Shown here: in pieces, positions 10,245 to 31,174 of the stretch | How positions within the stretch are numbered: position 1 is the stretch's first letter | Layout of the letters: every line of letters begins with the position of its first letter | Origin: Saccoglossus kowalevskii | Taxonomy: Eukaryota; Hemichordata; Enteropneusta; Harrimaniidae | DNA: 37,275 nucleotides | Direction: 5' to 3' | Assembly (NCBI RefSeq): GCF_000003605.2 | Contig: NW_003134345.1 | Span: 2,843-40,117 of the forward strand | Program-made: the position numbers and the translations under genes | Notes under the pieces: model-generated | Databases searched by the model: none | What the model saw: the letters and a program-made list of their open reading frames with translations, nothing else | Told to the model about the DNA's origin: nothing

Positions 10245-10369
10245 TCACATTTTCATTTCTTCCAGTACTTCATCAAATGTCTCAAACATAATATCAGCGT
10301 GGTGTTTTTGGAAAACCAGTGTTGGTCTGAATCGAATAGTTCTCACTCCACAACAACCGACATTAACAC
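10245..10369 (-). CDS. ABAT: ABAT exon 15 (C-terminus and stop)
   Basis: Residues 466-506 and a TGA stop. [17 protein letters not shown] matches [16 protein letters not shown]; Arg478 corresponds to Arg445 of the pig enzyme. The protein ends EVLEEMKM. The acceptor is CTTTTTCAG. Confidence 0.95.
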
Positions 10370-13300
10370 CTGAAAAAGTCAAGGTAATATTATTCATGAA
10401 TTTAGTAAAATAATAAATAAAACTAAACACAAAGTGCTGTTTAGAGATTTAGTGCTTTCATAACTAAATTAATGACCACTGTTTGCACTGTTATCTGTGC
10501 AAGTAATTTTCAGTTTAATTTCAGAATACAAATAAAATTCAACTTCAAGGACAAGAATGCTAATCTCCTTGTGCCTTCTCAAGCAAGGCAAATCGAAAAG
10601 GTTACAAACTAGGTCATGTGTTCTTGTAAGTTTCAGACAAAATTATAATCAAAGAAAGCTTAGAAAGAAGCATTATCTTGATTACACATAAAAAACTTTG
10701 TATTTATTGAATGCAAAATCATTGAAATTTGTCTTATTTTGACTATATACTTGTCTTTGCCATTTAGGTGCTTCTAATANNNNNNNNNNNNNNNNNNNNN
10801 NNNNNNNNNNNNNNNNNNNNNNNNNNNNNAAACTAATAACAAGTTATTGATATGCACAGTTATCAACCCTGAAGTAATCATCTAAAATCACCTATAAATT
10901 TGTTAATTTGTGCAAATTTGGTAATTTGTAAGCAAAAAATTCAACCCTAAACTGAACATGTATATGGCTTATCCATAAGCATCTACATGTGTATGTACCT
11001 AAGTATCATTGAATCTGATGGGTGGTTGAGATATTGGTTAAAAATTTAATATTGGCTAATTTATATGCAAATTAGGTCATTAATATACATGTATATCAAC
11101 CAAAAACTAATCAGGTTTGCGTATTATGTGCCATGTTTCATTCAAATCTGTTGAATGGTAATTGAGAAACAAGTGAAAATGCCTAAAATTGGCTAATTAT
11201 TTTGCAAATTAATTCATCCAAAAACTAATAAGAACAGTGCATTATTACAGAACATCTATGTACTAAGTTTCATTGAAACCTGTTTGATGGTATATAAGAA
11301 GTGAAAATGATTAAAATTTTCTAATCAATATGCAAATTAGATAATTATTATGCAAAGGATTTTAACCAAAGCTAATCTGTACTACTGTGTATTATCCCAG
11401 AAGATGGATATACCAAGTTTCATTGAAATCTGTCTAATGGTACCTGAGAAACAAGTGAAAATGCTTAAAATCAGTTAATTAATATGCAAATGAATAGATG
11501 AATCCGACGTGAAATCTATGTAATAGAAAAATATGCATAAAAATACAATACAGTTTCACTTTTTTTTTCATAAAAATTGTGAAGCTTTATCCAACTTAAA
11601 TTTATGATATTGTTATTGGCTATACTCACCTTTATTCCTCATTTTTTCTACTATCTCCAGTAAAGTGGCACCATCTCTGACATCAATTGCACAAAACGTG
11701 CCAGCACCTCTGGCATTACTGAACATACTAGGACATTTATCCTGAAAGGCAAATTGCAACATCTCTAGCATTACTGAACATAGTAGGACATTTATTCTGA
11801 AAGACAAATTGCAACATCTCTAGCATTACTGAACATAGTAGGACATTTATCCTGAAAGACAAATCCCAACACCTCTAGCATTACTGAACATAGTAGGACA
11901 TTTATTCTGAAAGACAAATCCCAACATCTCTAGCATTACTGAACATATAAGGACATTTATCCTAAAAGACAAATCCCAACACTTCTAGCATTACTGAACA
12001 TATAAGGACATTTATCCTGAAAGACAAATCCCAACATCTCAGCATTACTGAACATAGTAGGACATTTATCCTGAAAGGCAAATTGCAACATCTCTAGCAT
12101 TACTGAACATATAAGGACATTTATCCTGAAAGACAAATCCCAACATCTCAGCATTACTGAACATAGTAGGACATTTATCCTGAAAGGCAAATTGCAACAT
12201 CTCTAGCATTACTGAACATAGTAGGACATTTATCCTGAAAGACAAATCCCAACATCTCAGCATTACTGAACATAGTAGGACATTTATTCTGAAAGACAAA
12301 TCACAACATCTCTAGCATTACTGAACATAGTAGGACATTTATCCTGAAAGACAAATCCCAACATCTCAGCATTACTGAACATAGTAGGACATTTATCCTG
12401 AAAGGCAAATTGCAACATCTCTAGCATTACTGAACATATAAGGACATTTATCCTGAAAGACAAATCCCAACATCTCCAGCATTACTGAACATAGTAGGAC
12501 ATTTATCCTGAAAGACAAATCCCAACATCTCTAGCATTACTGAACATAGTAGGACATTTATTCTGAAAGACAAATCACAACATCTCTAGCATTACTGAAC
12601 ATAGTAGGACATTTATCCTGAAAGACAAATCGCAACATCTCTAGCATTACTGAACATAATAGGACATTTATCCTGAAAGACAAATCCCAACATCTCTAGT
12701 GTTACTGAACATAGTAGGACATTTATCCTGAAAGACAAATCCCAGCACCTCTAGCCATTTGATATTTTTGAATTCCCACGCTTGATATTCAACAGTCTGA
12801 TGATCTGATTGGTGTACTCAAAATTGTGATGTCATCTCAAAAAATAACAAAACATGTCTCATTTGATAACTTAACAATTTTAAATATAATTTGAAATACG
12901 GTAAATATCAATGTTTCCACAATATATCGGTAATTCACCAGTGTGTGTCCCGGTGCTAAAGTCACAATGACCTTACCATTTCTTATTCTTCTAACCCCAA
13001 CTTAGCAGTGCACAGAATTAGTTGTACTGATTGCTGAATTTTTTAAAAATGTGTGAAATTTGCTGATAGAATTACTTCCAAACTTAGTAAAATGTTATCA
13101 ATATGTCCCTATTTATATGTTGTAACAGCAAATATATTGACCCTCCCAAAAAAGATCCAAAATTGTTAGTGGCAGTTATAATTTGTCGGTAAATTGTATT
13201 TGAGGAACTGTATTTCAATATGCAAAATGAATACAGAATGGGCTAAGAATACTATGACATGCTCACACAAAAACCATTATAAAATAAAATCTCCAATTCA

Positions 13301-16300
13301 TGACCATGAAATACAATATTCATTAAAATCAAACTTGGAAGATTAATGATAAATTCAATATCACGTTGACTTCGGAAATCCTCTGTATCTTGCATTTGTA
13401 CCAAATAAAAAAAGCTTAGAGAGAACCCCCATGTGCTGCAGTATTATAGGAACCAATTACGGGTAGATATAATTTAACATGTACTACACATAATGCATGT
13501 GTGCTGAAATAGCTCTGAACTTTGTGATGCCCAATCTGAAAGCAATCTGATCCAAAGTGTTGACAATACTAACAAATACATTGGATATCAGAAAAGGAAT
13601 AAATTGAAAATTGTCTAATAATCATTTTCAATTATTACTACTTCATTATGCAAATAAGGTAATTAATATGAACAGATTACACCCAAAAAACTACTCAGGT
13701 CAGTAAATTATTCTAGAGCACCTACGCACCATACTTCATCAAAATCTGAAGAGTGGTTCTTAGAACACTTGTCTAGTTTATGCAAATTATGCTAACCTAA
13801 TCTGGTGAAACAGATGAAAATTAGCTTATTAATATGCAAATTAATATGCAATATCACAGAGCCTAAAAATTGAAATTCAATAATTGCCTTGGTGAAACAT
13901 ACACACATTACTTGTATACATACACACATATAGGCAGAGTAAAAATATCAGTCAGAGAATGTCAGAGAAATGGGTAAGGACACTTCAGAGGGGGGGGGAC
14001 AAGGGGGGTAGCTGGTACAGTTTTACGGGAAATAGAAAAGGCTCTTTACAATTTACAAGGAAAAAAAAGAAGTTTTTACAGTTTACAGTGAAAATTGAAT
14101 TTTGGAGTGTATTGTGTCCTATCGTCGTTTTACAGTTTTGAAAATGTAATTTCCTTGGATTATTCTTTACGAGAAAAATGACACATTTTTACAGTGTACG
14201 AAAAAAATATTTGATTGATTACATTGTACGTCTAGCCTGTGATTACAGAATTACGGAATTTATTTTTGCAATTTACGTTGTACGAACAAAAAAATATCAC
14301 ATTGAACGAAAATAACCTTTGCCCCCCCCCCCCACTTCCCATCAACCATTTTGAATCAAAACGAAGAGCATGTTCATCACTGGCTAAACATACTGAGTGA
14401 TGTCAATACCAAGTAGAATGAAATCTGTTCAGGCATGCCAAAGAAAAAGTTCATGACATCTTGATTTTCAGGACAAAAATGGTCACAAAATGTCTCTGTC
14501 TTTGCGCAAAATCATTTCTGGCATGTCAAAAAAGAAAGTGTTGGATGGAGGCATTTAACCCTAAATACCTGTTTCAAAAAGCATACAATGAGACAAAAAC
14601 ATCTCAGATGTTGCAAGAAATGAAAATACCATGCTTAGTGTACAACAAATCTTTCTTTGCACGAGGAAATAGATTATCATGCATGTGAAATTCACATACT
14701 AACATCTTTATATTTACATACCTGTAAACCTTCAAGTTTGTGTAGAAGGTAGTCACCAGTTTCTTTAACATTCTGTACTAAATCATTATTCTGAATAACT
14801 TCAACAACTTTCTCCAGCAATATTATTTTACTTGGATCTCCCATCCAGGTATTAAAAATACGATGTGCCTAGAAAATAAACATATAATTTATCTACAATT
14901 TGAATGAAAGTAGATTGCTGGTAACCAAAGACACTGACATAGACTTCATAAGCAATGATAGTTGCACTTAACATTTTAAAATCACCTAAATTCACTGAGA
15001 TTAAGTACAGCTATGAGTAACTTTAATCCTACTAAACCGACTACTGTAAATGCATTAATTATTCACTGGGTTTTAATTTCGCTATTTTCGCTGACAGATA
15101 AAATCCGCTAAATTAAGACTATATGAACATGTAAAATAACAATAAAACTCATTGTTTTCTTGACAAATTCGTGAAATTAAAACACAGTGAATATGCTCAA
15201 AACATCAAAAATGTGAAATTAAATGTCAGTGATAATAAATAGTTTTACAGTATAAGCTTACACCAAATAAACCATCTGGAATTCTCACCAGTATTGAACT
15301 GGAATCTTGATATACCAATGAATTACCCACTCACACATACATCTCATAATACTGGTTCACACTGCTTTTTTAATAACAAAAATGACGTCTTACTCCTTGA
15401 ACAATAAATTCATCTTTAAAGTAATAACCACCAGTCAACATCTTCTTACTAAAACATACAATATCCGGTGGTGAGGGTAACTCCCATAGTTCATGGGCCC
15501 AGAATTTACCACTTGCTGCACAACCAGTCTGTACCTCATCCACTATGAAAGCTACCTTGAACTTAAAATATTAAAATAAAATGTGTTAATCAAACAATAA
15601 TAACAATAAAACAAAAATCTAATTATAAAATCACCACAATCAATTAGTCTGCAGAATTGGCATTTAGAATTGGTGAAAACAGATATTGTTTTTTACATAC
15701 TTTGTATATTTGGCATATGAGACCCATCTCAAACATGAGCATTTTGATGATTGTGGATCTTTAATTTTTACATAGAATACTCACCTGGTCACAGATTTCC
15801 CTTAATTTTTGAAAAAAGAACTTAGTTGCATGGTTATCTCCGCCCTCTGCTTGTATTGGTTCAATTATCAAACCAGCCACTTTACGTCCTCTGCTATTGT
15901 AATCCGTAATTAATTTGACAACCTTAGATATAAATGAAATCATTTCATAAATTATATAAACAAAACCTTGACAGTTTTATTGAGATATTTAAGAAGAAGT
16001 TAAAATAATTAAATAATTGATGCAGATTTGATGTGGGAAGCAAATGTTAACAATTTCTAAATTACAACCCCTCTCCCCTTCTAATAGGCACTTTTGCGCC
16101 CATTTACCATACAACAATCTTACCTCATCCAAACATCTCAGTTCATTGGCCCTATTCTCTTGTTCATAGCGCTCAAGTGGATATTTCAATTGTGGGAATG
16201 GAGCAATTGGCCAATCAAATGCAGCGATATCTACTTTATGAACAGCCTTAGAATGTGAGCAAGAAAGGGCACCTGTCAGCAAAGAATACAAAATACATTA

Positions 16301-19300
16301 CATATTATATAATTAAGATCCTAAACACGACTGTACCCTTAAGCATATTTGGCACAAAGAATTATTGTGCCTGTAACTTAAAATACATTCTGAATCATGT
16401 GTATCAATTAAGAGGTAAATTACATGATAACTAAACAAAGTCAATTTAAAAAATAAGTTAAATTACCACAACTTCTACCATGAAATGCACCAACAAATGA
16501 CAATATAGTATATGGTGGACTTCCAGGACTCTGTTGGAAACAAATTATAAAATAACTTAGAACAAAATCTACAGGAAGTTTAATTATTTTTCACATAAAT
16601 TGTGATGGAATCTCATCATTGTTGCAGTTAGATTGATAGAAAATTTTCATACTAGTAGAGAGTGATTTTACAATATGCATTCATTAATGTGTAACTTGAC
16701 GTCGTTATTGGGACAGTTATATTCAATATATATTATCAAACCAGCCACTTTACATATATTTCATTTATAATGTGAGTGGATTATTTCAGTTATTACATCA
16801 TGTATGTAAATTCAAAGATGGAACATAAAATGACCTCATTACGAAGACATGAATCCAAGTCTTCAGCAGTCGGTTGTAATCCATTACGATCTTGCTTCTG
16901 AAAATATAAAGACAGGAATGTTCTAAGCATGCTATCATGCTTATACTAAACCTAATCTTGTTGGCACACATGGCCTAGTAGCTGGTCCTAAACACCTCAA
17001 TTTTGACTACCAGTTTTATTAAAAGCACATACAATGTATAAACAACAAAAAATGCATTTGTTGTGTGCTGAATCAATACAATATTCGTCACGTCAGTATG
17101 TGATTTACAATTGTATACACTACTAATAGAGCAAATGGAATATCTAACAATTATTATATGCTATGACTTACTCTTTTCCATATAAATGCATGTTTCATGG
17201 CATTTTCCACAGAACAAGCACCACATGCCATTGTCTGTACCCTTTCCAATCCGGGTGGAGCAACCTAAAAACAAACAATATTTCAAAATCAGAAAATGCA
17301 AAAACAATAACTTATCCTTCAGTTAATGATAAAAAGACAAATACAGACTCTGAAATATCCACCCAGACTTTAATTATTCAAGCAAACATTTTTAGGGGGA
17401 AAAAATACTGAGCCAGCTGCTTGTTCAGTCCATTTTATTGTTAAAACAAAAATTGATGAATATATAATCAGAGGTTGCACAAGTTTTATTAACAATACAA
17501 TCTAAACTATGCATGACTAAAGCAAATGATTTTTCTTGTCCCTTAGATGTCATCTTAACATTTTTGTGGATAAGTGAGCAAAATAATATGCAAAAAAATA
17601 CTGGAACTGCAAATATGCTTAATTAATTTAATAATTGGGCAGTATGAAATGAAAATCAGGTAATGTTCATTTACAAATAACATGCAGATGGAAAAAGAAC
17701 AAAACACAATACACATGCTCGTTTTCAGTTTGTTTATAATGTTTCCGATATGATTTTGTGTGCACACTGGTGATCACTATATTCCTTAACACACGCAAGG
17801 GTTACAGTGGTTATCAGCATATAAGAATGTAATTTTAATATAAATCAGACTCACTGAAATCAAAGCATTTTGAAGTCGTTCAGGGAAATCCTCATTAGGG
17901 TGTACTCCTAAAGCTGGTCTGTTGACAAAAACACTCTGAAAAGAGAACAAGTGATTAAATATTAGATGAGAAAAGCAATGTAAAAAATAATTAACCTAAC
18001 AATTAAAATTAATTATCATCTAATTAAATGATGGAGACTAAAACTAATCGTACACACATTAGGTACCAGTATTACATGCAACTGTACCATCCATACTGGT
18101 CATGTTTACAATTCTCAAACTTCCCTAATTAAATTAAAATTAATTATCATCTAATTAAATGATGGAGACTAAAACTAATCGTACACACATTAGGTACCAG
18201 TATTACATGCAACTGTACCATCCATACTGGTCATGTTTACAATTCTCAAACTTCCCTAAACATTGATGTAAGGCATACTGGAACATTCTAATTTGATAAT
18301 CCCTATCAATTTATAAATATTTGTGTGAGAATAGCGTAATTCAGCATTATATCCATACTGGATGGACAATGTTAGTGTTGCTTTGTCTCCTATATTTTAA
18401 CAAAAGCTAAATCTATAGATTTTGTGATTGAGTTTTGTATGGAGTTGTCAAGTCAATCACCAAAACACAAGCTTGATTTCCATGGCAACTAGCTGAAGAC
18501 GATTTAGTTTAACACAATATCTAAATGATGTGAAACTTTTTCCATTATGATTCTTTAGACCAAAAACTCCAATGCATGATGGGATTGGTTGCTGAATGGT
18601 AAAATGAATTAGAATTTACATGCATAACACACTACAGGACATTTGAATTTGGTTAATTACTTTATATGACAAAAGTAACTACACTTTTTGCACCACCCAA
18701 ATGTCAAAGCAATCAGACTAGTTTATTTTCAAGAACATGGACAAATAGTCACTAAATTTAGAGAATTGAAGTTCTGGTCACAAAATGCAAAACACTGGGA
18801 GGGATCCAGTCAATTTACTTAAATATCAAATATAAAAGAAACCAATCAAGCCATTTTCACAAAGAAGTCAGATACATGTATTGTCAAAAAATGACCAAAT
18901 CTGAGAGAGAACTACCCAATGTACCTTTCTGGAAAATATCAAAGTCAAGGTGAAAATATAGGAGACAATTTTGACTCACAATTGCAAGACTATAAGGCAC
19001 CAGCATTCTAAAATTGTTAATAATAATAATAATAATAATGCTTAAAAAAAATCATTAAATTTCAAAAGCATTGCAGTATTCCCAGAGAGCATTTTTATTG
19101 ACACACCCAGTGCACAGTAGTGATTTCCCACAGAAGATGTTTTCTCTAAAGAACAATTTCATAGACATACCCAGTGGCATAGTAATATTTTAGTAAGTGT
19201 TTAGTGATGGGTTACACACATGGGTAGTGATTTTCAAAGTGTTCAATAATCGTTACCACATAAGTAAGGATTTCCAAAGTGTTCAGTAGGGGGTTACCCA

Positions 19301-22300
19301 CATAAGCAGTTTTCTCTAAAGCGTATAGTGATGGGTTACCCACACAAGTAGTGTTATCCAAAATTTTCATTGAGTGGGTTACCCATACAGGTAGTGTTTT
19401 CCAAAGTGTTCAGAGATTGGTGATGGGTTACCCATACAGGTAGTGTTTTCCAAAGTGTTCAGTGATTGGTGATGGGTTACCAATACAGGTAGTGTTTTCC
19501 AAAGTGTTCAGTGATTGGTGATGGGTTACCCATACAGGTAGTATTTTTCAAAGTGTTCAGTGATTGGTGATGGGTTACCCATACAGGTAGTGTTTTCCAA
19601 AGTGTTGAGTGATTGGTGATGGGTTACCCATACAGGTAGTGTTTTCCAAAGTGTTCAGAGATTGGTGATGGGTTACCCATACAGGTAGTGTTTTCCAAAG
19701 TGTTCAGTGATTGGTTACCCATACAGGTAGTGTTTTCCAAAGTGTTCAGTGATTGGTGATGGGTTACCCATACAGGTAGTGTTTTCCAAAGTGTTCAGTG
19801 ATTGGTTACCCATACAGGTAGCGTTTTCCAAAGTGTTTAGTGATTGGTGATGGGTTACCCATACAGGTAGTGTTTTCCAAAGTGTTCAGTGATTGGTGAT
19901 GGGTTACCCATACAGGTAGTGTTTTCCAAAGTGTTCAGTGATTGGTGATGGGTTACCCATTACAGGTTGTGTTTTCCAAAGTGTTCAGTGATTGGTGATG
20001 GGTTACCCATACAGGTAGTGTTTTCCAAAGTGTTCAGTGATTGGTGATGGGTTACCCATACAGGTAGTGTTTTCCAAAGTGTTCAGTGATTGGTGATGAG
20101 TTACCCCATACAGGTAGTGTTTTCCAAAGTGTTCAGTGATTGGTGATGGGTTACCCATACAGGTAGTGTTTTCCAAAGTGTTCAGTGATTGGTGATGGGT
20201 TACCCATACAGGTAGTGTTTTCCAAAGTGTTCAGTGATTGGTGATGGGTTACCCATATAGGTAGTGTTTTCCAAAGTGTTTGGTAAGATGTTACCAACAT
20301 AGGAGTGATGGGTTACCCACATAGGTACGGGTAGTATTTCCCAAAGTATTCAGTAGAGGGTTAACCATAAATGGCAGTGTTCTCCCAAGCAGAGAGTTAT
20401 CCATTGATACAATTATAAAGCCTTAGTAATAAATAGAGTAACATTCAGGTATTTTTACTGAGTAACAAATCTCACCAGGTTACCCGGATCCTGGATAGCT
20501 TCAACTAGAGCTGGATGATTATAACCTAGTAGGAAGATCAAATGTACGTCATGTATGCATTCAGCCCACACCAAGTAACCCATATGTGATTTACATTAAA
20601 ATTAAACTGTGCAGCTGAATCATAAATATCACTTCATGATATATAGTTTAGTTAAATGATACTAATAAATTAATATTGGTAATTGATGGACAGCCAAAAC
20701 ACTATAACAATGCAAACTCAGTTATTTCTTGCAATTAAAAACTGAGCAATGTATGAAATGGTCCTGGAAAAAAATCACAATTATTAACCATACTTTTATG
20801 TCTCAGACAATTTAAGACACGTCTACCAGTCATTTATTTTGATTTGTATCACCCAAGTAATATTAAATAGTTTCACCAAAATTGAATAATTTTATTGTAC
20901 ATTTTTAGAAACAAAATGACCACCAGTTGGCATTCTGATCAGACGGCAAATGTCCTATCATATATTGACAGGTTGAATCAGAAAATTGTTTGCTTTCTAA
21001 ATCATGAAACTAATAAAATAGGCAAACAAACAGAATGCACATGCTGTGATTAAAGTGATCTGTTGCATAATGGCATATATTGATCAGGGTTAAGCAGCCC
21101 TGCATATCAGCCATCTTGAATCAAATCATAAAACCAATGCTTGCGAATGTGTCTTCACATTTGTGATAAATTCTCGCTGTAACAGATACAAATGTTATAA
21201 AAACAAATTGGCTGCTAATCATTCATTTTTTATTTGAATTCAGTATTAGGAAAAACAATCCATGCATGCATGCATCTATGTCTGACATCCGGTTGTAAAG
21301 TGGCAGAGATGCTTGACTTTGGGAAATTCATCCAAAATAGCCACAAATCAGCTTACCATCCCAAATCAGATTGCTTAACGAATATATCATGCATATGTAA
21401 GAATCCCAAGTTATACTACATGCATGTGTAGAGTTCAATTGCGATAGGTGATTTTTCGTTCAACTGCGAGATCTCGCGAGTTGCATGAAAGTTGCGCGTC
21501 AAACGTCTGCAGCAAAAATCGAACGATTTGATTTTGAACTCAAAATCAAAATCCTCCCAAAATACTTTTGCATTTGTCAAATCCCATGTGATGTTTGACG
21601 CCACTACAACGCTATGACCTTTGTTTGTCCTGTTTTTACTTTCGATTTCACGCATAACGCGTGATTCTCGCAGTGAACGAAAAATGGTCAATTGCTAACA
21701 TGTCAATGATATGACCATGTTCATTAATTAGACTGATGAAAATGTTTCAATTAAGTGCACATGTAGCACAGTCACCAGCCCCATCCAGAATTAGATTGCA
21801 ATTCACAAATGCTCAGTACCGTTAGTATCCTGAGATGGCCTAGACATGACACAAAAAATTAGTTTTGAAAAATAAATGACCACAAGTTAGCCATTTTGAA
21901 TAGAACCTGAAATAACATGCATCTATACCCAATAATGCACTATTAATGTACCAAGTTTTAACAAAATTCATTTGCAAACACCACAGATCCAGTTCCAAAA
22001 CAGCAGGGGTAAATTGCTTTATTTTATTTTTTTAATAAAATGGCCACCAGTCAAGCATCTGGAATCAGATTTCTAAACATTTCTAAAGATGTTAATGTAA
22101 AGTATAATGTGCTCTGATAGACACAGGTAAGTTTTTTTTCTGACCTTGAAAAACGGAGAGAAAAATGGCTGTGCCAACAAAATTCATAATCAATACAGTG
22201 GCAGATGTGTCATTATATTCTATGAAATTTTCACCAAGATTATTATTTATTAGAATCCTTCAAAAGTGATATGTGCATGAAATATGCATTTAAACACTGT

Positions 22301-25300
22301 ACATTTGTTTGTCTCTGTGAAAGTACCATCATAATGCCAGAATTTGTAGACAAAAATAGTATTCCATTAATAGAATTAATTAATTATTCATATTTCGTTA
22401 TCTGCTTTTGAAATGATAACTGCACAACTGGGATAATCTAGACAGAACTGTTTTTATGATTGAAAACTTTCTGTCACAAGACATTTTGCAGAATTGGTAA
22501 AGCAAACTTCCTTGTCATAAAAATAACATCAATTATGAATGTTGAAATGCAGAATTCAGCTGCATCGAACAATTCATTTAACACTTTGAGTGTCAGAAAT
22601 TTTCCAGACTAAAATTCAGTGCAAATATTTTCATTTTTTGTCAAATTTTTATCAAATTTCATCATCATTTTGGACCATACAGACAGTTTCAGGTATTTCT
22701 TTTAGTTTTTGATCAAAAGGTTTGTCTATTTATATCACCATTTCACATGGAGATGAGAAGACTACAAGATCATTTTGTAGAAGGTGCCAAAAGTTGACCA
22801 TGGTGCTCAAAGGATTACAGAGCCACAACTTTAACCCTTTCAAAGCAACAGTAAACTATCAACACCTTTCGCAATATGTAAAATATATTTGGTACAAAAT
22901 TAGCAAATAACAAATTATAGAAAAATTTTAAAAAACAAGAAATCAAGGGAATGACAAAGCCAAGCATAAATTTTAAATTTTGCTTTTGGGTGTGTAAATG
23001 TATGGTTTTCTTGATCAAAAGATTCAATTTGTACCCTATTTGGGTTTNNNNNNNNNNNNNNNNNNNNNNNNNNNNNNNNNNNNNNNNNNNNNNNNNNTAA
23101 TAGTGATATTCAAATTGCATAACAATTATAATCATACTACAAAATGTAGTAGTTTAATATTATTATTACAACGGTCAATTCAAAAAAATCAAAATTGATC
23201 AAAATGTTTGGGAAAATAAATAAATTATATTTGTTTATGCAGGTTTATTTTGAGAATAATGACACATGATTTCATGTGTTCAGAAAGTTAAATTCAGTAA
23301 CCAATTATTATATAGATACCAATATAATCACAATATCTGGAAAGCATGCATTATCTCCACAAAACAAAATATTGTAATTCAACAGTGCAGCATGAAGACT
23401 AAGATAAATTACTTACCTATTGGTACAGATGCTACTTGTGTAAACACATCCAACATTCGATTACCATCAGCATCAACTAAGTAATTCCCTTTACTTTTCT
23501 TATAATTACCAAAAAATAATACATGTTCAACATTCTATGAACAAAAATCACATGAATCACAAGTCAATGTCAATGTCAAAATTAAATCAAAATTTTCAAT
23601 CTAAACACAAAACAAACTGACAAGCATCAGTAACCCATGCACACGTAATAAGCTCGGTTATTAAGCATCCTTTTTTGGGGATGTCCGGTGGCCGAGGGGA
23701 AGACGTGTAGTGGCGTGAAGCTAGGCGATTAGGTGCTGTACGCGAGCGCCGGTTCGAGTTACGCATGCAGTACATGTTTACTATAATTAGACATAGTCTT
23801 TACCTTGCCGTTTATTCAGTGTTATTTGCTTACTTAGTAACCCATGCAAATGTTCTTACCAAGTGATATCTGACAATTTGTTAACATAAAGGGTTGCTAG
23901 TTGTTAAATTTCATCAAAATCACAAATTCAGCAATTTTGAATCAGCAATTTTGAATAAAAATCATGAAGATAAATAAAATGCATTGGTAATTCACCATGA
24001 GTAATGATGATAATAAAATAAATAAAATTGATATAGGCATGCCTAAGAAATTGTTGATAACATGTGTGAATTGTTTTGTTGTCTTTTGGAACAAAAATAG
24101 CCACCAATCAGTCAAAAATCAGTAGAAAAATAATATATATATATCATTGTCTTGTATTATGCCTGGGTGGTTAAAAACACATTCAAATATAAAAAACTAT
24201 TAAAGAAGAAAATATCTATTACAGAAATAAAACCCCATTATTCTTATTTATTTATAATTTTGTATATTTTATTTTTAAATATTTGGTGAACGCAATACAT
24301 ATTGCATATTTTAATAAAATTGCTTTGTCTTTCCTCTTTCTGGTTTGTTTTGATAACATAATCTTTAAATAAGAATTTTCTTTTTTCCTTGTATAATTCA
24401 TCATCTACGATGAAGTTAATTTTATTCTCAACTTCTTTTTCATTGCATTTTTTCCAAAGTTTATTCTTTTCTTTGATAACTGGTTCTTTGACCTAATTTG
24501 ATTTCATATTATATTTCAGTAATTTTAAAAACAAAGCATCTCTCTATACACTTTTTTAAAGTCTACAAAACAACTGTATATACGTTATTCTTTACCACTG
24601 TTTTCTCTTTTCCCATAAAGATATTTTTCAACAACCTTTTAAAAAAAAAAGAGTGCGTTATCTTTTCTAAAACTGAATTGAAGCTCAGTGAAATAATAAT
24701 ATTTAGAATACTAGTGAATAACTCTGATAAAGACAGCGTGACAGTAAAATTGCTCGTCAATTAGTTGGGTCTGATTTATGAATTAGAGCAAATATCATTG
24801 ACATCCACTATTTAAACTGCATTTTTTGCATGCTTTCGTCTAGTAGTATACCGGTATTATCTGTTTTCAATAACTTGGAAATTTCATCTTCAGCAGTGGA
24901 TTTTTTATTTTTTAAATTTTTGATTGCTTTTTGCATCAAGTTTCATTGAAATGATATGATTAGTTATTAAGATGTCAGTAGAAAACCTGACAATTGAGGA
25001 CTATGCAAATTAGGCAATTAATACGTACAGATTCCAACTAAAAAACTAAAAAGTATGCATTGTCCCAGAGCATTTACTGGTATGTATCAAATTTCATTAC
25101 AATCTGAAAAGCAGTTCTTGAGATATACATGGACACAAACAGGGTAATTCCAAAGACTTATATTGTATGTTACACACACAGAAGTAAAACCAAATTACCA
25201 ATATGTGTATGGTTTCACTTCCTGCTAAACCCAGAGCACAGTGCTATGGAGGGACTGTGCCCAGATACAAGCTGAAATAACTCAAAATAAGTTACACTAA

Positions 25301-28300: not shown

Positions 28301-31174
28301 CATTCAATTTTCCCTGTAAACTGTAAAAACGTCTTTTTTCCTTGTAAATTGTAAAAAGCCCTTTTTATTTCCCGTAAAACTGTACCAGCTACCCCCCTTG
28401 CCCCCCCCCCTCAAAATAGGTAGCCAGCTGCACTATATTTTTAGACCATAAAATATAGACCACCTCATGGTCTTAAAAATTTAAACCTGCTGTTTCAACC
28501 AATGGTTGGGACACAATTTAAATTTAAAAAACAAGTGCGTGGAAATGACAAGTCCCCATCAGTACTTTGTCAAAGATTACTGACAAATACCCAACATACC
28601 AAAGAATAGAATGGATTACGTGTCAAAATAAACAATTTCAGGAATTGCATAAAGAAGCAATGACCTATTTAAATGTGTCAATTGTGGTTTATAGTGTGAT
28701 GGTGGATCAAATCATTAGAGTAGTCTTACAGTACTTGCTGGTGGGGGGGGGGATTACCAATACATGGAATATCTATTTTGACTGATATGATACAAAATGG
28801 AGCCAGTTTATTTGCGCTTTTTTTTGTATTTGTGTTGAATGAGATAAGTCAAGGCATGTCAGAGAAATGGTCCTGGAAGAGCATTCTTTAAAACAATATG
28901 ACCATGAGTCAGCCATTTTGAATCGTATGTGCAAACAAGCAGCCTGTCGGCTGAAATAGCTCCGCTGTTTGCAAGGCACATTGCAATTAAAGAACAGAAG
29001 ATATCATTAGAAAATGAACAATATGTATAGTATTAAAGCAATCAGACTTTTTATAACTTTTTATCAAAAATATTAATTAAAATTAGATAATTGAAGAACA
29101 AAATCATCACGAAATGAACAAATCTGAGAGAGGTCTAGTACCTATGTAGTATATATAATATCAAAGCAATGGGACTTGTGGTTTTTAACAAGAAATCGAA
29201 AATATCACTTTTTACCAAAAATGACAAAAATATTTATCAAAATTAGAGAATTGAAGATATCATCACAAAATGAACAAATCTGAGAGAGGTCCACCCAAGG
29301 TACCTACATACCAAGTATCAAAGCATTCAGACTAGTGGTTTTCAAGAAGAAAATAGCATTTTTGACCAAAAATGCCAAAAATATTGGCTATAAATAAGAC
29401 AATTGAACATATCCACACAAAATGAACAAATCTGAGAGAGGAGCACCCAAGGTACCTAGAAGGTTTCACAGCTATACAGTTTGTGGTTTTTAAGAAGAAG
29501 TTGGAAATGTAAAGTTGATGACGACGACAGTGACAGCAACGACGTACGCCGACGGACAGTCAGTAATACTATAAGCTCCGCTCGACTTTGTTGACAGCGG
29601 AGCTAAAAACTGAAGATATCATTAGAAAATGAACAATAGGTACAGTGTCAAAGCAATCAGACTTGCTGTTTTTAACAAGAATTCAAAAATATCACTTTTT
29701 ACCAAAGATTCCAAAAATATTCACCAAAATTAGAGAATTGAAAATATCATCATGAAATGAACAAATCTGAGAGAGGTCCACATGTAGTACCTATATATGT
29801 AATATCAAAGCAATCTGACTTGCAGTTTTTAACAAGAAGTCGAAAATATCCCTTTTTACCAAAAATGACAAAAATATTCACCAAAATTAGAGAATTGAAG
29901 ATATCATCATTAAATGAACAAATCTAAAAGAGGTCTACCCAAGGTACATATACACCAAGTATCAAAGCATTCAGACTTGTAGTTTCTAAGAAGAAGTCGA
30001 AAAGGTAAAAAGTTGACACGGACGACGACAGACAATCACTCATATGATAAGCTTGACAAAGTCAACAGCGGGGCTAAAAAATTAAGTGAATCAAGGTTTG
30101 ATTTTTATGCATTTTTAACATAAAAATTATTATGAAATGTGGGCATGTGCTTATTCAAAAATATGTGTGATGTATGTCATAAGTTTGAAAGTGATCAGTG
30201 ATCAAGTGATCTCTAACTATGAGTTACATGATTTGGATGTGATGTGTTTTTGACAATTTTGATTTTTGATGTGTGCTAATAAGTCAAGGAGTGTAAAAAT
30301 CATACGGCAAGCAGCCTGTCACTGATATAACTCAATTTCAAGATAACAAGAATATTCAATAAAATGAGAAAATTGAAGTTGTCAACAATAAATAAATAAA
30401 TCTATCTAACAGAGGAATGAACCAAATTAATCAGACAGTGGTTCATCTAAGGTACCTACATATATAATATCAAAGCTGGTGCTTTTTAAAACAAGTCAGA
30501 AATAATTGGGTTTTTTTTACCAAAAATGACAAACAAAAAAATTACTGAAATTAGAGAACTAAGTTTTCACCATGAATTCAACAATTATTTTGATTGCATG
30601 TACATTCATTGACTGTATATTTCTGTCTAAGTGATCAGCGCCCTCTTGTGTTCATTTAATTAAATAAAAGAAACATTGTGCTGTGAATTATTGTATTTAT
30701 TACTAGGTACTTTTCTCTCCTCGCACGGGTACAGTTGTGGCGATTAGTTTTCGCAAAATTATCTCCATCCCTGATTAAAAAGAAGTGAAAACTTATAAAA
30801 GTGTTAGACCTGTACTGAAGACAATACCCAGACTCTAGTACTAGTAACAGTGTCAATATGCGTAAAGCCCCACCCGAGGCCCGTCGTAGCTGCAATTCTG
30901 TAATTTATATGTTATTTGGTTTCGCTGTAGTATCAAAGCAATCAAGCGGGCGGGCGGTTTTCAAAAAATCATAAGCGAAAGTTGACGAAGACGCGCAGAT
31001 TCGTTCAATCATATTCGATGACAGTAGAGCTTAGACAATAATATTGATTATTATTATTTCATGAATAAAGCCACACAAAAAGATTGCAGTATAATACTCA
31101 CCCGGGGTCGCTATCTGTTTGCCACGATGGAAACGAAACAAATCCACGCTTATTTTCACTCGTTTACAGGCCAT
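10245..31174 (-). CDS. ABAT: 4-aminobutyrate aminotransferase, mitochondrial (GABA transaminase), whole gene, 15 coding exons
   Basis: A PLP class-III aminotransferase that converts GABA and 2-oxoglutarate to succinic semialdehyde and glutamate in the mitochondrial matrix (GABA shunt). Joining exons 31102-31174, 27357-27463, 25585-25617, 23417-23534, 20476-20525, 17855-17935, 17172-17264, 16835-16897, 16467-16530, 16124-16272, 15785-15922, 15394-15561, 14722-14868, 11630-11741 and 10245-10369 gives 1521 nt and 506 residues, against about 500 in vertebrates, with every phase compatible. Key residues: Cys168/Cys171 (Fe-S), Arg225, Glu303, Asp331, Lys362 (PLP Schiff base), Thr386 and Arg478. Their numbers exceed those of the mature pig enzyme (as I recall them) by a constant 33, so I infer no indels across the catalytic core. 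Introns range from 194 nt to 3.6 kb; all are GT-AG. The gene looks intact and functional. A second copy lies downstream. Confidence 0.95.
10780..10829. other. assembly gap (50 N) in ABAT intron 14
   Basis: A run of exactly 50 N, presumably a fixed-size placeholder. It lies inside an intron and interrupts no exon. Confidence 0.99.
10840..11515. repeat. degenerate ~140-150 bp repeats with 'tatgcaaattag' core, intron 14
   Basis: Several loosely similar units contain 'taatatgcaaattaggtaat', 'ccaaaaactaat', 'accaagtttcattgaaatct' and 'tgagaaacaagtgaaaatg'. The same family recurs at about 13600-13860, 24930-25145 and 27845-27960. It is an interspersed, partly tandem repeat with no coding capacity. 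Confidence 0.65.
11630..11741 (-). CDS. ABAT: ABAT exon 14
   Basis: Residues 429-466 (last codon split). It begins [20 protein letters not shown], aligning with YPQFISRVRGRGTFCSFD. The acceptor is TTTGCCTTTCAG; the donor is G|GTGAGT, phase 1. The first ~43 nt of this exon and its acceptor are the template of the tandem array next to it. The exon identifies the true acceptor as the lowest-coordinate copy, the only one that leads into RGAGTFC. Confidence 0.94.
11742..12755 (-). repeat. minisatellite of 18 units (54-55 bp) made of the ABAT exon 14 splice acceptor and exon start
   Basis: In the gene's orientation each unit reads ATTTGTCTTTCAG then GATAAATGTCCTACTATG and TTCAGTAATGCTAGAGATG, copying the end of intron 13 and the first ~40 nt of exon 14 ([12 protein letters not shown]; the units encode [12 protein letters not shown]). 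I count 18 copies besides the true exon, with 55-nt spacing, or 54 where one base is missing. All copies keep the AG with an upstream pyrimidine run (TTTCAG, or TTTTAG near 11962). Because 55 is not a multiple of 3 and the next unit supplies TAA in the shifted frame, retention of a 55-nt unit leads to a stop. Confidence 0.95.
13985..14335 (+). mobile_element. ~350-bp interspersed element with G/C-run ends, copy 1 (intron 13)
   Basis: Starts with a G-rich run (ggggggggacaagggggg) and tagctggtacagttttacgg, and ends tttgcccccccccccc. The interior is a series of phrases such as tttacaatttacaagg and tttttacagtttacagtg. An opposite-orientation relative lies at 28049-28411. It looks like a non-autonomous element; 'acttc' near both ends may be a target duplication. 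Confidence 0.7.
14722..14868 (-). CDS. ABAT: ABAT exon 13
   Basis: Residues 380-428. [13 protein letters not shown] matches YRIFNTWLGDPSK; Thr386 is the residue that reaches the PLP phosphate of the neighbouring subunit. The acceptor is TTTCTAG; the donor GTATGT is phase 0. The next intron (2980 nt) contains the splice-acceptor minisatellite. Confidence 0.95.
15394..15561 (-). CDS. ABAT: ABAT exon 12 (PLP lysine)
   Basis: Residues 324-379. VDEVQTG holds Asp331, which pairs with the PLP ring nitrogen. Residues 359-366 (CFSKKMLT) hold Lys362, the Schiff-base lysine. GKFWAHE follows the VDEVQTG motif as in vertebrates. The acceptor is TTTTAAG; the donor GGA|GTAAGA is phase 0. Confidence 0.96.
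15785..15922 (-). CDS. ABAT: ABAT exon 11 (active-site glutamate)
   Basis: Residues 278-323. [18 protein letters not shown] is the class-III motif; Glu303 matches the Glu270 that pairs with the substrate-binding Arg445 in the pig enzyme. The acceptor is ATCTAAG; the donor GTGAGT is phase 0. Confidence 0.96.
16124..16272 (-). CDS. ABAT: ABAT exon 10
   Basis: Residues 228-277. It contains [20 protein letters not shown], nearly identical to the vertebrate [18 protein letters not shown]. The acceptor is TGACAG; the donor GTAAGA is phase 0. Confidence 0.96.
16467..16530 (-). CDS. ABAT: ABAT exon 9 (substrate-binding arginine)
   Basis: Residues 207-228 (last codon split). It contains [13 protein letters not shown], the family motif 'SFMGAFHGRTMG'. 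Arg225 corresponds to Arg192 of the mature pig enzyme, which binds the GABA or 2-oxoglutarate carboxylate. The donor is G|GTAATT, phase 1. Confidence 0.95.
16835..16897 (-). CDS. ABAT: ABAT exon 8
   Basis: Residues 186-206, starting [16 protein letters not shown], the variable region that in vertebrates reads SKERGQRGFSQEELET. The acceptor is good (ATTTTCAG). The donor GAG|GTCATT is the weakest in the gene, although length and frame both require it. Confidence 0.88.
17172..17264 (-). CDS. ABAT: ABAT exon 7 (iron-sulfur cysteines and PLP phosphate loop)
   Basis: Residues 155-185. The motif [11 protein letters not shown] carries Cys168 and Cys171, equivalent to the two cysteines that bind the inter-subunit [2Fe-2S] cluster of mammalian ABAT, and the Gly-Ala-Cys turn that holds the PLP phosphate. 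The acceptor is TTTTTAG; the donor GTAAGT is phase 0. Confidence 0.95.
17855..17935 (-). CDS. ABAT: ABAT exon 6
   Basis: Residues 128-154. It contains [19 protein letters not shown], matching the [16 protein letters not shown] region near the active-site entrance. The acceptor is CTCTTTTCAG; the donor GTGAGT is phase 0. Confidence 0.95.
18001..18259. repeat. near-perfect 131-bp tandem duplication in ABAT intron 5
   Basis: Bases 18001-18131 and 18132-18259 are the same sequence in direct orientation, without visible mismatches over about 128 bp (each copy carries aattatcatctaattaaatg and ggtaccagtattacatgcaa). It is either a very recent duplication or an assembly artefact from joining two haplotypes. 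Confidence 0.93.
19010..19039 (+). repeat. (taa)n microsatellite
   Basis: A run of about eight taa/ata trinucleotide units inside intron 5. Confidence 0.85.
19376..20300. repeat. 49-bp minisatellite, about 19 units, ABAT intron 5
   Basis: The unit is gtgatgggttacccatacag then gtagtgttttccaaagtgtt and cagtgattg. Most units are 49 bp; two are 41 bp, lacking one 8-bp tgatgggt step. Decayed copies extend outward to about 19090 and 20390. Each unit contains atgggt-t-acccat, a 6-bp inverted repeat around one base. The array lies about 200 nt 3' of exon 5 in the gene's orientation and contains no exon copy. Confidence 0.95.
20476..20525 (-). CDS. ABAT: ABAT exon 5
   Basis: Residues 111-127, [17 protein letters not shown], aligning with the GYSHPALLKLIQQPQN segment. 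The acceptor is CTACTAG; the donor GTGAGA is phase 0. The 49-bp minisatellite follows about 200 nt downstream in intron 5. Confidence 0.94.
21451..21685. mobile_element. 235-bp MITE-like element with ~20-30 bp terminal inverted repeats (intron 4)
   Basis: The left end atttttcgttcaactgcgag matches the reverse complement of the right end (atttttcgttcactgcgag). It is CpG-richer than its flanks. 'tcaattgc' occurs just outside both ends and may be a target duplication. An internal gattttgaactcaaaatc can form a hairpin. The 91-codon open frame crossing it is a by-product of its higher GC content. Confidence 0.7.
23048..23097. other. assembly gap (50 N) in ABAT intron 4
   Basis: Exactly 50 N, a placeholder gap within an intron. 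Confidence 0.99.
23417..23534 (-). CDS. ABAT: ABAT exon 4
   Basis: Residues 72-111 (last codon split). It contains [16 protein letters not shown], the conserved class-III aminotransferase N-terminal stretch 'NYLVDVDGNRMLD'. The donor is G|GTAAGT, phase 1; the acceptor is TTCATAG. Confidence 0.95.
23681..23765 (+). ncRNA. tRNA-like sequence (SINE head or tRNA pseudogene) with pol III A and B boxes
   Basis: The A box at 23689-23699 (tggccgagggg) fits TRGYNNARNGG exactly, and the B box at 23751-23761 (ggttcgagtta) fits the consensus except its last two bases. The spacing of ~50 nt and the GGTGGCCGAG start recall Leu/Ser-type tRNAs with a long variable arm, but the acceptor arms do not pair, so this is not a working tRNA. 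It is on the strand opposite to ABAT, in intron 3. Confidence 0.6.
24930..25145. repeat. copy of the 'tatgcaaattag' interspersed repeat in ABAT intron 3
   Basis: Contains tttcattgaaatgatatgat, actatgcaaattaggcaatt, agattccaactaaaaaacta and acatggacacaaacagggta, the same phrase order as the units in introns 13 and 14. Confidence 0.6.
25585..25617 (-). CDS. ABAT: ABAT exon 3 (33-nt microexon)
   Basis: Residues 61-71, [11 protein letters not shown], matching the ELMKQLNIIQ segment of vertebrate ABAT. It is bounded by CCTATAG and a strong GTACGT donor, both phase 0. At 11 codons it is the shortest exon of the gene. Confidence 0.9.
26104..26320 (-). CDS. unassigned open exon-like segment with a transmembrane stretch, inside ABAT intron 2
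   Basis: After a possible acceptor (CACATTTTTTAG at 26321-26332) a frame of about 71 codons stays open to a TAA at 26104. It begins with a hydrophobic segment ([20 protein letters not shown]), followed by a polar tail with [11 protein letters not shown] and ending CEKSRPPNK. That layout suits the membrane anchor and stem of a type II protein or a short C-terminal exon, but I do not recognise the protein. There is no in-frame ATG before the hydrophobic segment. It could be an exon of a nested gene, a pseudogene fragment, or chance. Confidence 0.3.
27253..27380 (-). repeat. 62-65 bp tandem duplication covering the exon 2 donor of ABAT
   Basis: The exon end ctggacccagatctaag and its intron flank occur twice: the true copy (donor GTCAGA at 27356) and a second copy 62 nt downstream (donor GTGTGA at 27294). 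The flank ttatgttac is duplicated at 65-nt spacing. Use of the second donor would add 62 nt and shift the frame. Confidence 0.88.
27357..27463 (-). CDS. ABAT: ABAT exon 2
   Basis: Residues 25-60. It ends in the family signature [10 protein letters not shown], which precedes the catalytic domain (vertebrate form: KTEVPGPRSQ). The acceptor has a T-rich tract and AG; the donor is AAG|GTCAGA, phase 0. A duplicated copy of the exon end plus a second donor lies just downstream in intron 2. Confidence 0.93.
28049..28411 (-). mobile_element. ~360-bp interspersed element with G/C-run ends, copy 2 (intron 1, inverted relative to copy 1)
   Basis: Starts ggggggcaagggttattttcg and ends gtaccagctacccccc ttg then a C run: the reverse of the element at 13985-14335, sharing phrases such as the tctagcctgtgattacag region. 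'aaaata' directly outside both ends (near 28044 and 28414) may be a target duplication. Being inverted, the two copies in the same pre-mRNA could base-pair across ~14 kb. Confidence 0.72.
28957..29605. mobile_element. ~650-bp MITE-like element with 12-bp terminal inverted repeats (intron 1)
   Basis: Left end tagctccgctgt, right end acagcggagcta. The interior has a ~155-bp sub-repeat carrying atgaacaaatctgagagagg, aaagcaatcagactt and caaaattagagaattgaag at about 29117, 29271 and 29424. The right end has a gacgacgacag tract. The last 35 bp also fold as agctccgct/agcggagct. Confidence 0.65.
29606..30080. mobile_element. second, partial copy of the 12-bp-TIR element (intron 1)
   Basis: Repeats the sub-units (atgaacaaatctgagagagg at 29757, a variant at 29915) and ends gacgacgacagacaatcact then caacagcggggctaaaaa, parallel to the end of the preceding copy. 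More distant relatives are visible at about 27060-27240, 18700-18960 and 30920-31035. Confidence 0.6.
31102..31174 (-). CDS. ABAT: ABAT exon 1 (start codon, mitochondrial transit peptide)
   Basis: Encodes residues 1-24 and the first base of codon 25. The peptide starts MACKRVKIS, is rich in Lys/Arg and hydrophobic residues and has only one acidic residue, as expected of a matrix-targeting presequence. The start has G at -3 and G at +4. The donor is G|GTGAGT, phase 1, which matches exon 2 and makes Val25. The first exon is poorly conserved between species, so this call rests on the start context, the phase fit and the targeting character. Confidence 0.8.

Follow-up and report, generated by a model that had tools for sequence, protein, structure and literature searches.

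The window, i.e., the whole stretch of 37,275 nt that was analysed, contains an ABAT (4-aminobutyrate aminotransferase) gene in which 19 splice acceptors of nearly the same sequence lie within one natural intron, 18 of them decoys supplied by a tandem array whose units join the end of the intron to the start of the following exon. Boundary-spanning minisatellites have been named 'mirages' in lancelet genes for Adh3, globin, troponin C and PGBD5 (PMC3087553, PMC3902484), and on sequence grounds the ABAT array appears to be a new member of this already named kind, with many and short units. We consider it probable that this is a neutral or mildly leaky mirage, removed together with its intron and mostly harmless, with some decoy leakage being destroyed by nonsense-mediated decay (NMD).

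On the minus strand of the window, 12 ABAT exons are readable between positions 23534 and 10245; their ends were placed by hand from GT/AG signals and homology, the model starting downstream of any further exons of the gene. The joined frame comprises 435 aa without internal stop, and the deduced protein aligns with pig ABAT over 434 aa, gap-free in the printed alignment (E about 3e-165), and matches Aminotran_3 (PF00202; E 6.4e-106). Among the best 60 of 172 matches, the next kind after ABAT is lysine epsilon-aminotransferase (about 5e-51). By this whole-length homology, the gene is identified as ABAT. The exons of the model measure 50-168 nt, and those flanking the array are the following:

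14722..14868, minus strand: ABAT exon J, the upstream exon; donor CAG/gtatgt, phase 0, ends LEGLQ
11630..11741, minus strand: ABAT exon K, named exon 14 in the initial annotation; 112 nt, acceptor CTTTCAG/GAT, donor AAG/gtgagt
10245..10369, minus strand: ABAT exon L, the last coding exon; ends ATGAAAATGTGA

Exon J (end at 14722) and exon K (start at 11741) are joined in phase 0 across an intron of 2,980 nt, and 11741 was therefore taken as the productive acceptor; the alignment with pig ABAT is gap-free across both exon K junctions. Exon K by itself (38 aa) matches ABAT weakly (E 0.01), although ABAT accounts for 5/5 of its matches, and the strength of its homology-based identification comes from the whole gene, not from exon K alone. 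Three other ORFs of the window gave no Pfam match above the cut-off, and no RNA family reached the gathering threshold in the window.

Tandem Repeats Finder placed a main row at 11701-12755 (period 55, 19.3 copies, 92% matches, score 1781), with a minor row inside it at 11742-11833 (period 26, score 75). A scan for acceptors, defined as TTTYAG followed by RATAAATGTCC, retrieved 19 places, namely the 18 upstream decoys and the real one; the AG is required by the pattern, but the regular spacing of the retrieved places rules out a skipped unit. The components of the array, listed in the direction of transcription, are:

12742..12759, minus strand: 5' edge, an 18-nt partial exon copy that precedes the 14-nt block of the first acceptor
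12728..12741, minus strand: first copy of the 14-nt intron-end block GATTTGTCTTTCAG
11742..12727, minus strand: 18 full tandem units of 54-55 nt each, head-to-tail
12727, 12672, 12617, 12562, 12507, 12452, 12397, 12343, 12288, minus strand: first exonic base of decoy acceptors 1-9
12234, 12179, 12125, 12070, 12016, 11961, 11906, 11851, 11796, minus strand: first exonic base of decoy acceptors 10-18
12017..12452, minus strand: units 6-13, a run of four dimers (55+54) repeating every 109 nt; self-match at lag 109 is 96.3%

The tandem array of 18 acceptor-bearing units before the exon, as proposed in the initial annotation, was thus recovered both by repeat detection and by the acceptor scan; it reaches slightly further 5' than proposed (11630..12755), with the partial copy running to 12759. 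The local score of this partial copy was reached by 7/2000 shuffles. The make-up of the units and their likeness to the exon can be read directly from the letters: columns 1-41 correspond to the start of exon K and columns 42-55 to the intron end GATTTGTCTTTCAG, so that a unit consists of 41 nt derived from the exon start and 14 nt derived from the intron end. Fourteen units have 55 nt, and the remaining four (units 7, 9, 11 and 13) have 54 nt, being one base shorter. No unit contains more than 14 nt of intron sequence, and exon-like sequence precedes even the first copy of the intron-end block. The authentic boundary constitutes one end of the array, acceptor 11741 being the last of the 19. 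The 18 full units show a mean pairwise identity of 93.3% (range 83.6-100%) and fall into 14 distinct types, with 12/55 columns variable and 43/55 invariant. The AG is kept in 18/18 units, as had been claimed; as a sign of constraint, however, this is uninformative, since two given columns would stay invariant with P = 0.61 if the 12 variable columns fell randomly. Selection on the AG was dropped as a claim, given that most columns are invariant anyway, and more generally, when a tandem array is young, conserved AGs and motifs inside it are poor evidence of selection.

The array consensus equals exon K at 37/41 positions, and no copy of the unit was found elsewhere within the window (best short match, E 7.6), in agreement with the proposed origin of the units from the exon that they precede. 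Exon K is the likely source, since it is the exon sequence that conforms to ABAT homology. When the codons are translated, three of the four consensus differences change the amino acid, one consensus change turning the glycine of ARG into aspartate, and for this reason it seems that the copies diverged in the manner of non-coding DNA. Furthermore, the 5' edge keeps the GAGGTGCTGG of the exon, and interior units mostly carry GAGATGTTGG: column 38 is T in 18/18 units and C in exon K and the 5' edge, and column 35 is A in 16/18 units and G in exon K and the 5' edge. This pattern suggests that a derived unit was amplified to form the interior, the edges largely escaping homogenisation; column 30, with T in the 5' edge as in the units and C in exon K, counts against this simple picture. 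The 109-nt dimers, together with an exact repeat of 145 nt (the longest within the array, with starts at 12476 and 12149, 327 nt apart), may be taken as signs of recent turnover in the array, which was read from one haplotype.

Other repeats were observed in the window, where GC is mostly 0.30-0.37 per kb. A second minisatellite lies in ABAT at 19328-20280, within the intron that separates exons B and C, with about 20 copies of a 49-nt unit; it was ruled out as another mirage, its best match to exon B and flanks being a gapped one of 13 columns. At 18001-18259, a 131-bp sequence is perfectly duplicated in tandem (2.0 copies, 100% matches). This duplication, which stops some 65 nt upstream of exon C, may be either very recent or an assembly artefact. 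Two neighbouring arrays at 29065-29458 and 29648-30003 have units of 152 and 157 nt, and their consensus units look related. Finally, runs of exactly 50 N occupy 10780-10829 and 23048-23097, presumably as scaffold gaps, and the acceptor array is located in the contig between them.

The consequence of using each of the 18 decoys was obtained by joining them to exon J by script and reading the frame onward. In all 18 the frame closes at the TAA of a unit junction once 19 or 37 codons have been read, at a distance of 107-1038 nt before the K/L exon junction; the stop is directly visible in every case, in line with the claim that only the last copy gives a functional frame. The more specific claim, that upstream acceptor use adds 55 nt and reaches a TAA, is accurate for decoy 18, where the stop is as follows:

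11737..11739, minus strand: TAA (read 11739-11737) met in frame upon use of decoy 18 (11796)

It also holds in kind for all 18 decoys, except that those with 54-nt units (decoys 7, 9, 11 and 13) reach the stop one unit later than the others. For five of the 18 decoys (3, 6, 11, 12 and 16), the upstream distance from 11741 is a multiple of three, and a stop is met in these too. Under the 50-55 nt rule for nonsense-mediated decay, all 18 decoy mRNAs would be NMD targets, because their stops fall far enough upstream of the exon junction. As simple arithmetic, equal use of equal-strength acceptors would leave 1/19 of the transcripts productive.

Comparison of the acceptors revealed that the real site, judged by its letters, is without any local mark that sets it apart from the decoys. 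Pyrimidines occupy 12 or 13 of the 18 positions from -3 to -20 in all 19 acceptors, against 11-15 in the other 11 exons, and the AG exclusion zone measures 18-19 nt in all 19 (19 at the real site), whereas the ten other ABAT acceptors scored have zones of 22-79 nt. Decoy 11 (12179) shares every letter with the real acceptor between -54 and +13, as do decoys 7 and 13 between -41 and +13. What does distinguish the real site is its position, given that 11741 yields an exon of 112 nt and the decoys yield exons of 167-1098 nt, of which all but that of decoy 18 (167 nt) exceed the range of the model exons. With acceptors so nearly identical, the spliceosome must be guided in its choice mainly by position and exon definition. 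In terms of donors, scored with an approximate matrix that was also used for branch points, the 11 true ABAT sites range from 4.3 to 13.4; the donor of exon K ranks second (12.3), and that of exon E (16829-16837, GAG/gtcatt) is the weakest (4.3).

The branch point is unsettled. TACTATG, said by the initial annotation to be carried by every unit, is present in 13/18 units, and on the unit itself two AGs follow the last A of this motif at 15-18 nt; it was ruled out as a constant branch point on both accounts. We prefer AGTAAT as candidate, whose putative branch A stands 29-30 nt before the next exonic base. This motif is found for acceptors 2-19 (as AGTAAC at acceptor 2) and is absent from acceptor 1. 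In the common unit the next AGs occur within 5-8 nt of it, and AGs under 12-15 nt from a branch point can be bypassed, according to one study (PMC1431707). On the approximate matrix, CCTAC (2.6), TTCAG (2.51) and CTGAG (3.87, at four acceptors) score above AGTAAT (2.09). The region in which a branch point would be expected is exon-derived in sequence for the real acceptor and decoys 2-18. The best approximate score upstream of the real acceptor is 2.6, and the ten other ABAT acceptors range from 1.9 to 4.5, those of exons E (2.52), G (2.6) and H (1.9) being no higher.

According to the preferred explanation, the intron-end/exon-start boundary of ABAT would have been duplicated in tandem and then amplified, partly as the 109-nt dimer, presumably by unequal exchange or slippage. 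The array would normally be spliced out with the intron. The strong donor of exon K would pair across this short exon with the nearest upstream acceptor, i.e., 11741, which exon definition would favour on account of the 112-nt exon and its donor over the 167-1098 nt decoy exons. Some leakage is to be expected, its likeliest targets being the decoys closest to 11741, at 11796 and 11851, and the leaked mRNA would carry an early stop and be a target for NMD. The array is not assumed to be selected for any function. What counts against this explanation is that nothing local marks 11741, and we infer exon definition as the deciding rule.

The initial annotation went further in proposing that each added unit is a decoy acceptor feeding NMD, so that ABAT level falls as the array grows. 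Its interpretation is supported in part, namely as to the origin of the units and the coding consequence of decoy use; the dial itself is a conjecture. The stops met by all decoys before the exon junction and the local quality of the decoys, as good as that of the real acceptor, are consistent with such a copy-number dial. The associated claim that normal AG selection should favour upstream acceptors is not supported: in a human-cell library, tandem 3' sites that were both at consensus showed no order preference (PMC6783452; native spacings 2-59 nt), a result that nevertheless speaks for a dial in which decoys compete. The linear-scan rule applies to AGs downstream of one branch point (PMC1431707), and its use for a succession of complete acceptors goes one step beyond that. 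In human ABCA7, with a VNTR of 12 to about 427 copies in people, expression is inversely correlated with VNTR length; however, the unit-retention isoform was unchanged with length and it was exon 19 skipping that changed (PMC5954066), which argues against a simple decoy dial. Moreover, published mirages are said not to disturb mRNA splicing (PMC3087553, PMC3902484), those of Adh and troponin C being reported to 'not generate aberrant mRNAs' (PMC3902484). The RT-PCR on the globin mirage employed oligo(dT)-primed cDNA from whole animals, and could have missed NMD targets. On balance, we regard a copy-number dial as rather unlikely, and it is unlikely to a somewhat greater degree that a copy-number-variable acceptor ladder actually sets ABAT output, with the productive share falling with the number of decoys and the rest going to NMD. 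Were that so, array length would tune GABA breakdown between individuals or tissues.

A more severe effect, in which the decoys badly impair ABAT splicing and the array represents a tolerated or heterozygous mutation, is very unlikely in our judgement. Branch-point supply may indeed be poor, with at most 14 nt of intron end per unit, an exon-derived region upstream, a best approximate score in the lower part of the range and a shorter AG exclusion zone than in the ten other acceptors; yet coding is intact over the 12 exons read, which would not be expected for long of a fixed null allele, and three other ABAT acceptors score no higher for their branch points. It is hardly plausible that misassembly accounts for the copy number or for part of the array: the 145-nt exact repeat and the two 50-N gaps of the scaffold leave room for it, and one BflGb6 mirage seemed to be wrongly assembled in its draft version (PMC3087553), but the 14 distinct unit types and the clean exit on both sides tell against it, and misassembly would not give rise to a unit that spans the boundary. 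Least of all do we expect a step toward a new intron or microexons, with exon-derived segments used as short exons inside the array, as the mirage intron-gain model might suggest (PMC3087553). The recurrent GT sites of the array (best 12 kinds) score at most 1.6 on the approximate matrix, against the much higher true donors, as exemplified by GTT/GTGATT (1.6, twice), GAT/GTTGGG (1.1, eight times) and TCA/GTAATG (0.3, eighteen times, exon K included). Microexons from these inner sites were rejected for that weakness, though GAG/GTGTTG of unit 16 (4.8) and GAG/GTGCTG of exon K (5.5) are, by approximate score, within the range of the weaker true donors.

The neutral or mildly leaky mirage that we favour can also be placed among known systems. 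Human variable internal tandem repeats at exon-intron boundaries resemble the ABAT array in that they can change splicing or form introns; they are tied to new introns, whereas the ABAT units have an acceptor and no donor-like GT, with the possible exception of unit 16 (PMC2812944). The ABCA7 intron 18 VNTR likewise abuts an exon, has a splice site in its unit and, when one unit is used, shifts the frame to a premature stop, but it is a donor-side repeat with a 25-bp unit that starts with GT and is described as intronic (PMC5954066); the ABAT array is on the acceptor side, with coding sequence in its unit. A donor-side VNTR of the ABCA7 type was in fact ruled out here, as the array abuts the acceptor of exon K, its units begin with the exon start, and the donor of exon J at 14722 is about 2 kb from it. 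'Introns from tandem arrays' were reportedly described by Zhuo et al. in 2007.

The closest likeness is to the lancelet mirages. The ABAT array has head-to-tail units, an intron-exon boundary in the unit, the authentic boundary at one end, splice signals in many units, and boundary units outside homogenisation (column 30 of the edge counting against this last feature). Our searches of the open-licence literature found no mirage in ABAT, although they did not pair ABAT with mirages, so that this is weak evidence of absence; ABAT is also absent from the genes named for lancelet mirages in the text available (PMC3087553, PMC3902484), where the known hosts are cephalochordates, which is not a defining feature. 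The array would extend mirages outside lancelets, if its host is not a lancelet. The lancelet PGBD5 gene has 60- and 108-bp tandem repeats that similarly include intron-exon boundaries, among them an imperfect triplication (3 x 108 bp), whereas the copies in ABAT are far more numerous (PMC3902484). Adh3 mirage units are given as 10-72 bp (as cited in PMC3087553, PMC3902484), those of ABAT measuring 54-55 nt. Lancelet BflGb6 shares with ABAT the tandem duplication of an intron 3' end with the 5' part of the next exon, the splice signals in many units, the authentic boundary beside the array and the exclusion of boundary units from homogenisation (PMC3087553), and differs in having units of 150-160 bp in 6 or 3 copies, as compared with 18 extra copies of 54-55 nt in ABAT.
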